Positions 29,324-46,505 of a stretch of DNA of 64,000 bases are shown here, piece after piece. The notes beneath the pieces are model-generated. The model was given only the letters and a program-made list of their open reading frames with translations, made no database searches and had not been told where the DNA came from. Each line of letters begins with the position of its first letter. Positions within the stretch are counted from its first letter, which is position 1. Source of the DNA: Actinoalloteichus hymeniacidonis. Its GTDB lineage: Bacteria; Actinomycetota; Actinomycetes; Mycobacteriales; Pseudonocardiaceae. The stretch lies in contig NZ_JACHIS010000001.1 in NCBI RefSeq assembly GCF_014203365.1, positions 1,364,001 through 1,428,000 on the forward strand. Direction: 5' to 3'. The position numbers were made by a program, and so were the translations under genes.

Positions 29324-30559
29324 CTACAGGTAGGCGGGCGGCGAGTGGTACCACTTGGTGAGCACCCCGACCAGATGTTGCAGGTTCTGAGTCAACATCG
29401 ACGGCGACGATTGGCCGAGTGAGAAGTCGCTCTTCGTCTCATGACGAAGCCAGAAGCTCTCTCCGGAGATCGGCGCATTCATGTGCGGGCTGAGCCGTGA
29501 GAAGAACACCGCGATCTCCTCGGCGGGGACCCCCGACTCGGTCAGCTGGTGATACGTCCCGGCCAAGACACGGAGCATCCCCACCGAACCCAGCAGCGAG
29601 TTCCGACGCAGTTCCAACGGGGGCAGCGTGCGCTCGGCAACCGCGTCCAACTCCGGGAACGCCGAACAGATGCAGTCGAGGAAGCCGTGGATCTTCTCCA
29701 CGAGCACCTCGTCGGCGATCTCGGCCTCGCGCTTGCGGCCCATCCGCCCCGCCACTCCGACGGCGACGCCCCTGGTGAGGTCGGCGACATGCTTGGCCCC
29801 CAGCAGATTGGGGTTCCGCGCAGTCATGCGGTCCTGTTCCAGGTCGACGCGGTCCTTCAGCAACGCATGGCTGACGACCCGGTCGAGAATGCGGTTCGCG
29901 ACCTTGGAGCTGTCGAACCGCGATCGCAGGGCGCTGGAGATGCCCTTCGCATTGTCGGCCACGTCGACGAACATCTGCCGCGCCTGGATGTTGTTCGGCT
30001 CGACATAGATGTCCAACCCGATGGATTCACGCTCCAGCCTGGCCAGCTGGTCGGTCAGCGTGGTCCTGGCCGCCTTGAGTACCGGGATCTTCTCCGCGCG
30101 AACCGCCTTGGCAAGTTCACGGTCGAGTTTGGTGAGCTGGTCGCCGATGTCCTTGAGCGCCAGGTGGATACCGAGCACACGGTGCTGACCATCGATGATC
30201 AGCAGCGGCGAGACCGAACCGATCGCCCACGGAACCGAGAGGTAACCGACCGCATCGGTCTCGCTGCCGGGCACCGCTTCGAAGACGCAGCCGCCGTTGT
30301 CCCTCACCAACAGGGTGGGCGCGACCCACGACTGATTCTGTAGGACGTAATCCCCGAATCCCCTCGCGTGCTTCGGAGTGACCTTGCGGTTGTCCGGGTC
30401 CGGCTCCTCGACGCTGGGTACCGGTAACACCTGATCGAGGCTGGTCAGCGGAATCCGCAGGCTGTACACGACTCGGCCGCCCTGCGCGGATCGGCTGGCC
30501 AGATAGGTGCTGGAGCGCCGAGCACCGCTGAGCCGAGAGGAGTCGATGGAGAGAGACAA
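29324..30559 (-). CDS. DGQHR-domain (DndB-like) protein
   Basis: About 411 residues. The name-giving motif is LLIIDGQHRVLG near residue 122. Other DndB-like features are SLRIPL near the N-terminus, QARQMFVDVADNAKGIS (a ParB-like FxDxN variant) and a helical C-terminal half. DndB regulates DNA phosphorothioation (dnd) clusters, and related DGQHR proteins occur in other defence loci; no dndA, C, D or E lies nearby. The TTG at 30559 is preferred, with AGGGGG 6 nt upstream. The frame also runs to 30607. Confidence 0.8.
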   Translation of the reverse strand: MSLSIDSSRLSGARRSSTYLASRSAQGGRVVYSLRIPLTSLDQVLPVPSVEEPDPDNRKVTPKHARGFGDYVLQNQSWVAPTLLVRDNGGCVFEAVPGSETDAVGYLSVPWAIGSVSPLLIIDGQHRVLGIHLALKDIGDQLTKLDRELAKAVRAEKIPVLKAARTTLTDQLARLERESIGLDIYVEPNNIQARQMFVDVADNAKGISSALRSRFDSSKVANRILDRVVSHALLKDRVDLEQDRMTARNPNLLGAKHVADLTRGVAVGVAGRMGRKREAEIADEVLVEKIHGFLDCICSAFPELDAVAERTLPPLELRRNSLLGSVGMLRVLAGTYHQLTESGVPAEEIAVFFSRLSPHMNAPISGESFWLRHETKSDFSLGQSSPSMLTQNLQHLVGVLTKWYHSPPAYL

Positions 30560-30667
30560 GAAGTACCCCCTGGGAAGACACCGTGATCCCGAATTCTTCC
30601 GGATCAAGGACTGTGAACGGATAAGAATGCGCGAGCGTCGAGGCCGAAGGCAAGCCGAGTTAGTTTT

Positions 30668-35903: not shown

Positions 35904-37919
35904 TCAGCCGCGCCGATCCGCCCGCCCATAGGCCTGGAGTATCCGAGCCATCTGAAGCCCCCGCTGCGGAAAGCGCGTCACATAGGCCCAGCGGAACTTC
36001 GTCCGAGGCCACCAGCGTGAATCCGGCAGCACGAGCCGCATCATCCTGCACAACCGAGCCTCGTGTATCTCGTGGCCACCAGCCAACGTGCTGATCTGGC
36101 TGATCGCCTCATCGCCGAACACCGATGGGTCGTGCACCAACCTGGTCAGCAGGGTCGCCGTCAACGACTCGGTCTGCTGCGCAGTCCGTGAGGCATCGAC
36201 GTCCGGCGGTGGCCCGGTCAGCAGGATCCGGTCGTCCTGCGGATTGAAACCCAGCGCCCACAGGAACGTGGCGAACGCGACCTGCTGTTGGCCTGCACGG
36301 TTCACGGCGGGATCGGTCCATCGGCTCAACGCCGTGAGCACCGCCGACCGGCTCTTCTCGTCGGCGAGCAGTACCAAGAGGCTGCGCACGACGTTGTTCC
36401 GCAGCTGAGGGTTGGGAGCCTGCGCCAATCTCGCCAACCGCTGCAGCGACTTGGGCAGATTCTCCTTGCCATAGGAGGTACTCAGCATCAGCGCGGCGGT
36501 AGTCCGCACCATCACCTTGGTGTCGTTGTGGACCCAGTCGTCGACGAGGGTCTCGACCATCTCCGTCAACTGCGGGTTCCTGGCCAGCCGTCGAAGTGCC
36601 TGCGCAGCCAACTCACGACTCGACAGGCGTTGGTGAGACGCCAGACTCCGAATGCGATCCAACGGCCGATGCGCCGGGACATCCTTGGTGACCAGGCAGA
36701 GGGCGTTGACACAGGCCAAGCGGAACTCGGTCGGGAAGTTCGGTGCCGACATCCAATCGAGCAGGACCGGCCGCACCCGGTCGTAGTGTCGCCAGACGTA
36801 GGTCAGGATCGCCGCGCCTCGTTCCGAGGACAGGAATCGCACCGTCTCGTCCTGCAGACCCGGGTGGCGCGGGTGCTCGATGATGTCGCCCCGGGCTTCG
36901 ATGCGTCGCAACAGACCCGACCGGGAGGTCTCGAAGATCGGTATCGTCGCAGGGGGTACCCCGTCGATGGACTGCTGAGCCTTGTTGATCGCCTCCAGCA
37001 GCGACCGCGCCAGGTCGTACACCGGATCCATCGCTCGGTTCTCGAAGAACGCCACGGCGATCGCCATCGAGATCTCCATCGGCGTGCGTTCGACGGAGAA
37101 CCAGCGTTCGACGGTGGCATTGCGGTGACCTCGGAAGGAATCGAGCGTCTCGCGAATCCGAATCGGGTCCGCGCCCGCCGCCATCAGGGCGTCGGCGACC
37201 TGTACCGCACGTCCTGGGGACGTGCCGGGCCGCAGCAGATCCTCCTCGTTCTCCTTGGCCAGGCTGATGATCTCCTCGGCCCGGCAGGCATCCCGGTGGC
37301 CGACGATCGCCGAGAAGACATCCATCGCAGCAGGAGGCGACAACCGCACCTGGGTGGAGTCCAATTCGGAGGGAAGGTAGAAGGCGTCATCCGGAATCAG
37401 GATGAGCAGGCCGCCCTTCGCCCGTACCGCACTGGCCAACCTGCGGAAGCCCGGCTCGGACAAGGCGCTGTGGCCGTTGACCGCGCACAGCTCCCACAGG
37501 TAGGCGTGTCCCTGCTCGAATCGCGGTTCGACGGTGAGGGTCCGGTGCGGGTCGAGTTCGACCACCACCCTGGGCCGGTACTCCGCGAGCAGTCGTTTGG
37601 CGGCGAACTCACGGCCGCTGCCCTCCCCGCGCAGCGCCATGACGCCGGTTCTGCTCAGCAACCTCCGGGCGTCCTCGTATCCGCCGGGTTCGATGAACGG
37701 TGTGCCGTCGGCCATCTCATCCCGGCTCAACACCCGATCCCAGGGCTTGGCCTCGACGAAAAGCTCGGTGTAGTTCCACGTCTGGTTGCCGTGGATCGTG
37801 TCGGCCTGGACCCCGTGCGAATCGCCCTCCACCTGGAACCTCGAATAGCGTTCCGGGAAGAAGACCTTCTCCTTCTGATCGAGTTCCTCGGCCTGCTGGG
37901 GCCGATCCTCGGTCATCAT
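35904..37919 (-). CDS. Degenerate P-loop plus HEAT-like protein with N-terminal amyloid-type motif
   Basis: 671 residues. Residues 30-50 (VEGDSHGVQADTIHGNQTW region) closely match the last 20 residues of the protein encoded just upstream. A P-loop-like turn, ALRGEGSGREFAAKRLL near residue 95-110, lacks the Walker Lys (GEGSGRE), and HGHAYLWEL-type and GGLLILIPDD strands follow as in STAND-like ATPases. The last ~300 residues are alpha-helical repeats (LSSRELAAQALRRLARNPQL; VRTTAALMLSTSYG; LRNNVVRSLLVLLADEKS). The ATG overlaps the upstream stop (ATGA), so the two are coupled. This layout suits a sensor or scaffold that receives a signal through its N-terminal motif. Confidence 0.7.
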   Translation of the reverse strand: MMTEDRPQQAEELDQKEKVFFPERYSRFQVEGDSHGVQADTIHGNQTWNYTELFVEAKPWDRVLSRDEMADGTPFIEPGGYEDARRLLSRTGVMALRGEGSGREFAAKRLLAEYRPRVVVELDPHRTLTVEPRFEQGHAYLWELCAVNGHSALSEPGFRRLASAVRAKGGLLILIPDDAFYLPSELDSTQVRLSPPAAMDVFSAIVGHRDACRAEEIISLAKENEEDLLRPGTSPGRAVQVADALMAAGADPIRIRETLDSFRGHRNATVERWFSVERTPMEISMAIAVAFFENRAMDPVYDLARSLLEAINKAQQSIDGVPPATIPIFETSRSGLLRRIEARGDIIEHPRHPGLQDETVRFLSSERGAAILTYVWRHYDRVRPVLLDWMSAPNFPTEFRLACVNALCLVTKDVPAHRPLDRIRSLASHQRLSSRELAAQALRRLARNPQLTEMVETLVDDWVHNDTKVMVRTTAALMLSTSYGKENLPKSLQRLARLAQAPNPQLRNNVVRSLLVLLADEKSRSAVLTALSRWTDPAVNRAGQQQVAFATFLWALGFNPQDDRILLTGPPPDVDASRTAQQTESLTATLLTRLVHDPSVFGDEAISQISTLAGGHEIHEARLCRMMRLVLPDSRWWPRTKFRWAYVTRFPQRGLQMARILQAYGRADRRG
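37770..37832 (-). other. Coding segment for N-terminal RHIM/BASS-like motif
   Basis: Encodes residues 30-50 of the P-loop/HEAT protein: GDSHGVQADTIHG. It matches GDNNGVQADNIHG at the end of the upstream gene in 10 of 13 positions. Confidence 0.6.
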
Positions 37920-38839
37920 CGGCCGCCGAAATTGATGTCGCCGTGGATGTTGTCGGCCTGCACGCCGTTGTTATCCCCCCGAACGGCGAACTTGGCGACC
38001 GTGGTGTCACGGCCTGCGGTGTTTCCCGACGCGGTCGCGTTGAACGTGGTGCTGGTGAACTGGTTGTGATCGCCCGAGATTTGATGCCCGTGCACCGCCG
38101 CCTGATTAGTGAAGTTGCGACCGCCGGACACGGTGGTGGGCGGTCGCGGGCTGGGCGGTTCCGGAGCCGACGGCGCGTTCGTCGGACCGGGTGCCTCGTC
38201 GTTGCGGTCGGCGCTGGGTGCCGCGGCCTGGCGGGCGAACTCGGTGATGCTGAACGCATCGAAACCGGGCACCCGAATCCACGCCCGACCCGGGCTGGCC
38301 TTCTCCTCGAGGTGCACGGCGGCGAAGTCGTGGCTGTTCAATCCGGTCAACCAGCCATCACCGAACACTGCGCGATGTACCCGGTCCGAGAGGATCAAAC
38401 CGCTGTGCGGCGAACCATCGGAGCGCAAGCCCGAGCACCGCGCCAGGATGGCTTTGAACAGATCGGCATTGAGCAGCCGTGCCCGGTCGATGGCCGGTCC
38501 GTAGTAGCCGAGGGTGTCGGGCAATGCGCCGAGCTCGACGGCCAGCCGGAGTCGGACCGAGGGGCGGAACCGCGCATTGCGTTGCGCGGCGAGTTCATCC
38601 AATCGGGTGGCCAGCAGAACCACAGCGGGTAGATGAGTGGCCGGGAAGGCCAACAACCTGCCGTCGCCGGTGTGCTGATCCTCGGTGCTCATGACGTCGA
38701 CCAGCGCGGTTCCGGCCATCCCCGCTGTCAACAGGGCCGCCAGAATCCCAGGCAGGTCGCGTCGTTGTTCACCGGGGTATTCCGAGGAATCGATCAGATC
38801 GACGCCCAACAATGCCCGCTGTTCCGGCATCGTGCTCAC
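37916..38839 (-). CDS. Nucleotidyl-cyclase-like protein with C-terminal amyloid-type motif
   Basis: 307 residues. Residues 8-200 follow the class III cyclase-like layout common in actinomycete proteins: GVDLIDSSE (Asp14) then TGDGRLLAFP (Asp59), the usual metal-binding pair; RLRLAVELGAL; GPAIDRARLLNA where canonical enzymes have xVNxAARL; LILSDRVHRAVF; and AWIRVPG. The usual catalytic Asn is Asp, so activity is uncertain. A Pro/Ser-rich linker (205-240) leads to Gly/Asn/Gln-rich repeats (HGHQISGDHNQF; GDNNGVQADNIHGDINFGG). GTG 38839 has GGAGG 6 nt upstream. It sits between a CRP-type gene and its ATGA-coupled P-loop partner. Confidence 0.7.
   Translation of the reverse strand: MSTMPEQRALLGVDLIDSSEYPGEQRRDLPGILAALLTAGMAGTALVDVMSTEDQHTGDGRLLAFPATHLPAVVLLATRLDELAAQRNARFRPSVRLRLAVELGALPDTLGYYGPAIDRARLLNADLFKAILARCSGLRSDGSPHSGLILSDRVHRAVFGDGWLTGLNSHDFAAVHLEEKASPGRAWIRVPGFDAFSITEFARQAAAPSADRNDEAPGPTNAPSAPEPPSPRPPTTVSGGRNFTNQAAVHGHQISGDHNQFTSTTFNATASGNTAGRDTTVAKFAVRGDNNGVQADNIHGDINFGGR
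37919..37984 (-). other. Coding segment for C-terminal RHIM/BASS-like motif
   Basis: Encodes the last 22 residues of the cyclase-like protein, containing GDNNGVQADNIHGDINFGG. The V-Q-A/V-G/D core with flanking Gly/Asn resembles RHIM and bacterial amyloid signalling motifs. The pairing with the next gene is direct evidence; amyloid behaviour is inference. Confidence 0.6.
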
Positions 38840-38945
38840 CAGGTACCTCCATCGAAACGCCGGTTGTTCACACCGGATCGCCGGGAAGTCTTGGGCAGGA
38901 TCGTGTTGCCGTCTCCCGGAAAACCGGGATACGGACCGATGTTCT

Positions 38946-39599
38946 TCACACGCCGGAGGTCTTTTCCAAGTACCGGGCGAGCGCGATGCGATCGGGGATC
39001 AGGAACCACAATCGGGCGGTCGAGACCAGCCCCGCCTCGCGCAAGACGTTGAGGACCTCTTCCACCGATTTCGGTGATGCGGAGATGTATTGCGCGAGTT
39101 CCTGCTGGCTGATCCCCCGGATCTCGGTGCCCTTCGAGGTGGTCGTGCCGGGTTCCTCCGCCCAGTCGAGCAGCTGATGGACCACCCGGGCCCGTACCGT
39201 CTTCGTGGCGACGGCAAGCTGCCTGCGATCCGCCTGCCGCAGGCGTTCGTAGAGCGTTTGGTTCACCCACTGCACCACGGCCGGATCAAGCTGGTGCAGC
39301 CGACGAAAGGCCTCGCGGCCGATACTGACGGCCTGGACACGGTCCCGCGCGATCACCGTCGCACTACGCGGCTCGTCCTGGATGACACCCAGTTCACCGA
39401 TCAGCGCCCCGGCACCGTAGAAGCCGATCATCAATGCGGCTCCGGTCGGATCGTTGAGCATCACCTTGACCGTGCCCGATTCGATCAGCAGGACCTCGGT
39501 ACTCACGCTGCCCTCGTGGATCAGAGTTTCGCCCTGTACGTACGACTTGGGTCGACCCACTTCGCGCAGCCGCGCCCGTACGGCCATGGTCGATCCCAC
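38946..39599 (-). CDS. CRP/FNR-family regulator with conserved cNMP pocket
   Basis: About 217 residues. The cyclic-nucleotide-binding domain (residues ~10-120) has the phosphate-binding cassette GELGVIQDEPRSATVIA, including the Glu and Arg-Ser that hold cAMP/cGMP in CRP. A dimer helix follows, then a winged HTH (ISQQELAQYISASPKSVEEVLNVLREAGLV). No Cys cluster for an iron-sulfur centre is present. GTG 39599 has AAAGGA 6 nt upstream; GTG 39620 and ATG 39587 are alternatives. It lies 106 bp upstream of the cyclase-like gene on the same strand, which suggests it senses that protein's product. Confidence 0.85.
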   Translation of the reverse strand: MGSTMAVRARLREVGRPKSYVQGETLIHEGSVSTEVLLIESGTVKVMLNDPTGAALMIGFYGAGALIGELGVIQDEPRSATVIARDRVQAVSIGREAFRRLHQLDPAVVQWVNQTLYERLRQADRRQLAVATKTVRARVVHQLLDWAEEPGTTTSKGTEIRGISQQELAQYISASPKSVEEVLNVLREAGLVSTARLWFLIPDRIALARYLEKTSGV

Positions 39600-39812
39600 T
39601 CCACGTCCTTTGTGGTTCACGGTGTGGATTCTTGCGAACGCACTCGGTAAAGAGCACGGCCGTTCGGGTGATGCGAGTGGATCTTGGGGGAGTCAGCGAA
39701 TCCCCTGATGTCGATGGTGGCGTGCGCGGTTCGCCGCCGGGTCCTCGCGCGGCAGTCGGTCCATGGTGCGCCCGGGGATCGAGCGGGCCGAACGGTGGAT
39801 GTAGCCTGAGGG

Positions 39813-45645: not shown

Positions 45646-45948
45646 GACGGTGACCGTAACGGCCGCTGCTTATATAAGTCAAGGCTGCTATTTGGTGTGC
45701 CGTGCACTGTGTTCGGCCGCTCCCGGCGTTCACGGCTCAGCCCGCGGTACCAGCGCTCGACCTCGGGTGGCAATGGTTTGATCGGCTAATCACGGCTCAT
45801 CCGGTGCCAAGATCGTTTCCGTGGGCGCGCTTAGGGAGGGCAAGCGTCTGGCAACACGCCGCACCTTCCCGAACCGCATCCCGGGCGTGTTGGTCAACAT
45901 CCGGTAACCTTGCACGGCGTTGAACACAGTCGTCCCTGCACACGCAGG
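45646..45948. other. Intergenic, includes likely CRISPR leader
   Basis: About 300 bp holding the ArsR promoter and, next to the first intact repeat, the presumed leader of the array. The degenerate repeats lie at the far end (46393-46505), which places the leader on this side. No gene is supported. Confidence 0.45.
45653..45682 (-). promoter_or_regulatory. Promoter and operator of the ArsR-AHSA1 operon
   Basis: On the minus strand, TTGACT (45682-45677) and TACGGT (45658-45653) are separated by 18 nt, placing the start of RNA at about the GTG 45645. The perfect palindrome CTTATATAAG (45669-45678) lies at the -35/spacer junction and is a likely ArsR site. Confidence 0.55.
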
Positions 45949-46505
45949 GTGGCACCGGCCCTTCGGGGCCGGTGAGGATCGCAACACCATCGACCTCTCC
46001 GATATGAACGGTGCCAGCCTGTGGCACCGGCCCTCCGGGGCCGGTGAGGATCGCAACCCTGTTGGCCGCCATCGACCAGGCGGCCCCGATCCGCGTGGCA
46101 CCGGCCCTCCGGGGCCGGTGAGGATCGCAACGCGCTCCCCCGCCACGGATACCGCTCGGCCACCGGCGGGTGGCACCGGCCCTCCGGGGCCGGTGAGGAT
46201 CGCAACGATTTTACTGCCGTTTGGCGGTCGTCGGATGGCGGTCGTGGCACCGGCCCTCCGGGGCCGGTGAGGATCGCAACACGCACTGCTGCCCCACCGG
46301 CTGAGCGCACGACGGACAGTGGCACCGGCCCTTCGGGGCCGGTGAGGATCGCAACATCGGGCACGCTCTGGCCGCCGACGGGGTGACGTCCTGTGTCACC
46401 GGCCCTTCAGCGCCGGTGGAGATCGCACCGACGTCCGCGTAACCGTGGTGGAGTCTGCGGTTTTCGGCGACACCGCCCCCACAGGGGCCGGTAAGGACTC
46501 GCAAC
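45949..46505 (+). CRISPR. Orphan CRISPR array: 8 repeats, 7 spacers
   Basis: The 37-nt repeat begins GTGGCACCGG and ends GATCGCAAC. Six copies are intact: 45949-45985, 46021-46057, 46095-46131, 46170-46206, 46244-46280 and 46319-46355. Two more are degenerate: 46393-46429 and about 46467-46505. Spacers are 35, 37, 38, 37, 38, 37 and 37 nt and all differ. Each intact repeat holds a 9-bp stem, CACCGGCCC/GGGCCGGTG, closed by TTCG (first and sixth) or TCCG (second to fifth). No cas gene is in the window, so the type is not assigned and the array would depend on a distant locus. Confidence 0.95.

Follow-up and report, generated by a model that had tools for sequence, protein, structure and literature searches.

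We analyzed a 64,000-nucleotide stretch of the Actinoalloteichus hymeniacidonis genome (GCF_014203365.1, NZ_JACHIS010000001.1, positions 1,364,001-1,428,000), hereafter the window, and all coordinates are given relative to it. Three adjacent genes on its reverse strand encode a Crp-like regulator, a protein (A) that resembles class III nucleotide cyclases and has a RHIM/BASS3-like tail, and a protein with AAA+/STAND-like and HEAT parts (B). With a probability that we put at about 0.6, these genes form a signaling module in which B is a receptor that seeds a polymer of the cyclase. The C-terminus of A and the N-terminus of B carry matching motifs, and matched motifs across many related pairs suggest that an enzyme of second-messenger synthesis is switched in a prion-like manner.

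The cyclase tail matches the start of the downstream protein

Gene A (37916-38839, reverse strand) has a GTG start and encodes 307 amino acids, with a cyclase domain at approximately residues 5-206 (38222-38827, reverse strand) and a C-terminal motif at residues 282-305 (37925-37996, reverse strand), the core of which, residues 288-300, occupies 37940-37978. Gene B (35904-37919, reverse strand) encodes 671 amino acids and carries an N-terminal motif at residues 26-49 (37773-37844, reverse strand; core residues 32-44 at 37788-37826), a P-loop AAA+/STAND-like module and HEAT repeats. The stop codon of A and the start codon of B overlap in the four bases ATGA (37916-37919, reverse strand).

The A core, GDNNGVQADNIHG, and the B core, GDSHGVQADTIHG, are identical at 10 of 13 residues, where A ends in ...VRGDNNGVQADNIHGDINFGGR and residues 28-50 of B read ...FQVEGDSHGVQADTIHGNQTWNY. 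This agreement had been pointed out in a first-pass annotation of the DNA and was borne out by whole-protein BLASTP of A against B, in which the motif stretch aligned with E = 2e-5 (12/24 identical, 18/24 similar) and the next best alignment had E = 3.3. Against the B N-terminus, none of 1000 shuffled A tails scored as high as the real one. The A tail scored 70 against B and 36-44 against five proteins of the same genome that have related motifs, indicating that the A/B pair is insulated within its own genome. The first-pass annotation had also appealed to likeness at the DNA level. That likeness is real, with 30 of 39 core bases identical, but it is uninformative: codons of shared residues are identical in 7 of 10 cases when 5.0 are expected from the codon usage of the three genes. 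The DNA likeness therefore does not show a recent duplication, and the argument carries no weight. In the structure model of B the motif falls inside residues 1-59, a low-confidence part.

Motif matching extends across related pairs

Motifs that serve as an interface are expected to match within each pair however different they are between pairs. From 98 cyclase-type frames we retained 48 non-redundant cyclase/partner pairs after removing 24 frames without a partner frame of at least 280 codons at an offset of -30 to +40, as well as 26 duplicates; the window pair is L001 in the locus list. The gene offset of -4 seen in the window occurs in 31 of the 48 pairs. The mean local score of a cyclase tail was 56.0 against the N-terminus of its own partner, compared with 29.1 against other partners and 25.2 for the shuffled tail, and body controls gave 21.6 (cyclase-body segments against the own partner) and 21.4 (tail against the own partner's body). 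The shuffle p was below 0.01 in 36 of the 48 pairs, so the first-pass expectation that homologous pairs keep matching motifs held. The motifs themselves vary greatly from pair to pair; types that match within pairs include GVQAG-like, GDVVTGxKNVY, ALMGNVGGDFTY, SHRADGxGxVNAPGRDQ, GDGAQSAFGNT and VINNxxxxVxAxGAVFGx.

With cyclase-body and receptor-body similarity removed, tail and N-terminus retained a partial correlation of 0.34 (p 0.0005, the floor for 2000 permutations). A second set of 49 pairs, in which a partner offset of -60 to +80 was allowed, gave a permutation p of 5e-5 (floor) and ranked the own partner at the top for 21 of the 49. Ordered by rising cyclase-body likeness, the own partner outscored the other partner in 92%, 83%, 78% and 59% of 1702, 384, 136 and 34 comparisons, respectively. 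The matching signal thus stems from divergent pairs, which is expected if the motifs drift slowly. We conclude that homotypic motif matching between the cyclase tail and the partner N-terminus is well supported by the sequences, and that a homotypic contact between A and B is very probable.

Changed receptors come with matching tail motifs

At three loci the partner has been swapped. In the cyclase tails of L142 and L144 the usual GVQ/VQAG motif is followed by a further one, GVQIGDGNTQ, and the downstream gene at both loci encodes an nSTAND1-WD40 protein (nSTAND1 E 1.1e-111 and 1.8e-113, respectively). The N-terminus of this partner, GVQVGEGNTQ, matches the tail with p 0.0005 in L142 and p 0.0015 in L144. 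Likewise, the third and final motif of the L145 tail, ASGNGRVYQALGDQHI, matches the downstream protein, ASGNAGVYQAGRDQYI (p 0.0005). Where the receptor body is changed, a matching motif has accordingly been added to the tail. A Crp-like gene is present in L144, and tblastn did not find one in L142 or L145.

The L145 tail as a whole consists of three different motifs in succession, the last of which matches the downstream protein, and resembles a modular interface array. If the module works as we propose, cyclase tails with one to three different motifs would make a single enzyme responsive to several receptor families, and further receptors could be acquired through the addition of a motif to the tail.

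The cyclase lies beside a Crp-like regulator and a conserved palindrome

In class III cyclases the active site lies at the interface of two subunits. A has the fold of the cyclase homology domain, and the residues that we take to be metal-binding (D14 and D59, the latter in a GDG) and catalytic (R121) are present in all ungapped rows of a 73-row alignment (69/69, 71/71 and 72/72, respectively). The Pfam model Guanylate_cyc (PF00211) had 0 matches in the window's genome at E 0.01, and A itself had none.

The gene upstream of A (38946-39620, reverse strand) encodes a 224-amino-acid regulator with the Crp/Fnr layout, that is, a domain binding cyclic nucleotide monophosphates (cNMP; PF00027, 4.1e-20) and a Crp helix-turn-helix (HTH_Crp_2, PF13545, 2.3e-11). 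We grouped 73 unique cyclase loci into 40 close (cyclase E < 1e-60) and 33 distant ones, with one fragment of the split gene L019 counted among the latter. In 54 of the 73, the gene immediately upstream of the cyclase, in the same orientation, is a Crp-like homologue (38/40 close, 16/33 distant), and four distant loci without one have less than 500 bases of upstream sequence. The cyclic-nucleotide pocket Gly-Glu..Arg-Ser, at positions placed by E. coli CRP, reads GERS in 63 of 74 Crp-like rows, duplicate loci counted.

A dyad scan and a pattern count identified the palindrome TCCCGG-N4-CCGGGA in the spacer between the Crp-like gene and the cyclase gene (38914-38929, no strand assigned). The top dyads of the scan occurred in 12, 9 and 8 of 40 Crp-cyclase spacers, and in at most 3 after shuffling. 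The pattern TCCC-N8-GGGA, which was derived from the same spacers in which it was later counted, occurs without mismatch in 19 of 37 close spacers and with at least 7 of its 8 bases in 25 of 37, some of these spacers coming from close relatives; 200 spacer shuffles gave a mean of 0.14 and a maximum of 3, and cyclase coding segments gave 0/37. Distant loci have the pattern in 1 of 16, and the locus concerned is a piece of the split gene L019. The window palindrome is one of 8 pattern sites genome-wide. It is likely the operator of the Crp-like regulator, with the 5-6-5 geometry of CRP sites. Its half-site is unlike TGTGA, and the recognition helix of the Crp-like proteins likewise departs from that of E. 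coli CRP.

Homologues of A were found in 136 of 249 genomes in the family and in 66 of 394 in the class (E 1e-10), and homologues of B in 32 of the family's 249 genomes (E 1e-6); Amycolatopsis, Saccharopolyspora, Saccharothrix, Lentzea, Kibdelosporangium and Actinokineospora are among the relatives. In the window's genus, with three genomes searched, B occurs only in the window's genome. The tail of A also holds a second element, RNFTNQAAVHGHQISGDHNQFTS (38051-38119, reverse strand), which is conserved. A matching partner for it was not found; four genomes gave one match each, all in cyclase genes (313-391 codons).

Relatives of the motifs resemble an amyloid-forming peptide

Published systems include bacterial NLR amyloid signalosomes with BASS motifs, among them the RHIM-like BASS3 (PMC7889193, PMC8086366, PMC9815663). 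The BASS3 peptide of a Frankia protein aggregates with cross-beta signs and Congo red (PMC8086366). We compared nine sequences with this peptide, using 5000 shuffles each (floor p 0.0002), and found a match for both sides of L142, both sides of L144 and the L145 tail (p 0.0002 each), as well as for L010 (B p 0.0006, A p 0.009). Relatives with an nSTAND1 partner are therefore BASS3-like on both sides.

A motif profile built from 32 GVQ-type motif segments was searched against eight genomes. Ten of its matches were scanned for domains: five precede NB-ARC, NACHT or nSTAND domains, the single nSTAND match falling just short of the cut-off, and the other five are in proteins without a telling domain match. 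In the window's genome, with E values up to 0.1 accepted, the profile found A and B together with five other proteins, two of which are NB-ARC proteins. The fungal Ses_B model matched 2 of the 32 motif segments (best E 0.036). As in animal RHIM and fungal PP motifs, many members have a G-phi-Q core; the RHIM core, G-(I,V)-Q-(I,V)-G (PMC7885112), is present in its strict form in both partners in 2 of the 48 pairs (L010 and L091) and in a relaxed form in both partners in 17 of 48. The reading of the motifs as RHIM/BASS-like, which the first-pass annotation had put forward, is thus partly supported: relatives match the BASS3 peptide and the profile reaches NLR-type N-termini, but the window motifs themselves gave no match, as discussed below. 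Provided that A and B make contact, templating of an amyloid is likely.

Small frames (100-201 codons) in L127, L133 and L138 carry the motif at or near their C-terminus, and a hydrophobic stretch precedes it in L127, which is in the window's own genome, and in L133. These frames may encode Bell-type effectors.

A proposed mechanism and its alternatives

We propose that the HEAT part of B senses a trigger, upon which B would oligomerize and gather its N-terminal motifs. The gathered motifs would seed a cross-beta polymer into which the tails of A are templated, and the crowded cyclase domains could then pair and produce a messenger that we take to be a cyclic nucleotide. The Crp-like factor would bind this nucleotide and act at the palindrome before the cyclase gene, with feedback on the operon. 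Activation of the cyclase with a Crp-type output seems probable. More broadly, we suggest tentatively, and at somewhat less than even odds, that NLR-type receptors of actinobacteria assemble and switch on a nucleotide cyclase by seeding a RHIM-related amyloid, and that the messenger drives a dedicated Crp-type transcription program and not cell death.

Several observations weigh against this mechanism. Unlike animal RHIM and fungal PP motifs, the window motif reads GVQAD on both sides and misses the RHIM core, in which a second hydrophobic residue and Gly follow. Pfam includes a RHIM model, and it matched none of A, B, 13 A-type proteins, 14 B-type proteins and the 32 motif segments in a scan that reached E 10, with filters removing most matches above 0.1; the profile check proposed in the first-pass annotation thus came out negative for RHIM. 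Nor did the window motifs match the one BASS3 peptide compared (A p 0.24, B p 0.13). An Asn aids catalysis in class III cyclases, and its putative position in the A family has another residue in most rows. A pattern located the position of the P-loop Lys in 34 partners, and in 30 of them, including the window's B, Arg stands in its place, which makes ATP-driven switching uncertain.

The pair statistics also have points that count this way. N-terminus similarity correlates at 0.91 with the receptor body, 0.80 with the tail and 0.72 with the cyclase body, and lineage consequently accounts for much of it. Twelve of the 48 pairs fail p < 0.01; one of them, L043, is a full-length pair with a 4-base overlap in which both ends look motif-like and p is 0.59. 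The figure of 59% of 34 comparisons given above refers to close relatives (cyclase-body similarity 0.6-0.99). We examined 18 close loci without an obvious partner using a VQ-type pattern over 1.4-4.4 kb downstream, and in 17 of them a motif-bearing partner was not seen, the tail motif being present nonetheless. The remaining locus, L091, which coincides with L142, has an nSTAND1 partner, and one of the 17, L096, has a short frame that begins like the L144 partner and is perhaps a broken partner. Three genomes have an unlinked B homologue, and the own pair scored highest in one of the three. Partnerless or unlinked cyclases imply that other motif proteins serve them or that the tail also self-assembles.

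The main rivals to the seeded polymer are docking without polymerization and repression by B. In the former, the motifs would make a small homotypic beta-sheet contact, as a dimer or 1:1 complex without amyloid, through which B scaffolds or activates the cyclase. All of the sequence-matching evidence fits any homotypic contact, and many motif types of the family are not RHIM-like, as the core counts above illustrate (17/48 relaxed, 2/48 strict). However, relatives of the same cyclase carry a match to the amyloid-forming BASS3 peptide (PMC8086366), and the motif profile reaches NLR-type N-terminal regions; we consider simple docking unlikely. Repression would have B keep the cyclase inactive through the motifs until a trigger releases it. 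Translational coupling and a fixed gene order (the -4 overlap of 31/48 pairs) suit such an obligate complex, as does a mostly degenerate P-loop, yet the many cyclases that retain the motif where an adjacent B was not seen would then be constitutively active, and fungal systems of the same layout operate by recruitment (PMC7889193). We regard repression as improbable.

The likeness of the motifs could also be a by-product of recent duplication or gene conversion between neighbors, with no function in interaction. The genes are adjacent and 30 of 39 bases are identical, but the 7 of 10 identical codons against 5.0 expected, and the persistence of matching in pairs whose partner is from a different NTPase family, as well as over the range of motif types, largely contradict this explanation, which we find very hard to sustain.

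Comparison with known signaling systems

In the BASS layout, the motif is found at the C-terminus of an effector and the N-terminus of an NLR encoded by adjacent genes (PMC7889193). A and B resemble it in having a short motif common to the effector C-terminus and the receptor N-terminus, in neighboring or overlapping genes of filamentous actinobacteria, and in having relatives with a close BASS3 match on both sides. Unlike BASS3, the window's own motif is divergent. Furthermore, the effectors described for BASS systems include Bell, CHAT and TIR (PMC7889193, PMC8086366, PMC9815663), whereas here the effector is a nucleotide cyclase accompanied by a Crp-like regulator, so that a messenger and transcription seem a likelier output than a membrane lesion.

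The effector-associated domain (EAD) principle, by which small domains homotypically couple cyclases to STAND-like proteins, is also similar. In EAD coupling and the ternary iSTAND/iSTAND2 systems a homotypic adaptor is common to a core STAND-like protein and a signaling enzyme, sometimes a cNMP cyclase, and adjacent copies are most alike (PMC7159879, PMC8195603). EADs are, however, described as small, mostly alpha-helical domains in MoxR-vWA and GTPase systems, while here a short motif within a disordered tail serves as the adaptor and a Crp-like factor is encoded by the third gene. As in Pycsar, the cyclase gene adjoins a gene for a cNMP-binding protein, and the Crp-like protein matched the PADLOC models PycTIR (1.4e-16, residues 8-141, its cNMP-binding part) and PycC (4.9e-10, residues 14-148). 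Unlike Pycsar, this cNMP-binding protein bears a Crp-type DNA-binding domain, and no PADLOC model, those of Pycsar cyclases included, matched A or 12 aligned homologues.

Among the publications listed by literature searches, several of which gave only the best 15 to 20 of many matches, none links an amyloid motif with a nucleotide cyclase in bacteria, although the founding BASS paper, Dyrka et al. 2020, may mention one. With a Crp-like reader, a cyclase effector would yield a measurable and possibly non-lethal output, and the natural receptor swaps are ready-made specificity controls. The role of bacterial amyloid signalosomes would thereby become directly testable.

Other features of the window

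Elsewhere in the window, seven repeats of approximately 37 bases (GTGGCACCGGCCCTCCGGGGCCGGTGAGGATCGCAAC) at a spacing of 72-75 bases, the last copy being degenerate, form a small CRISPR-like array at 45948-46442; no Cas match was found in PADLOC among ten long open reading frames of the window, picked by length. A DndB-like protein is encoded at 29324-30607 (PADLOC PDLC02658, E 1.1e-11) and possibly belongs to a phosphorothioation or related defense locus.

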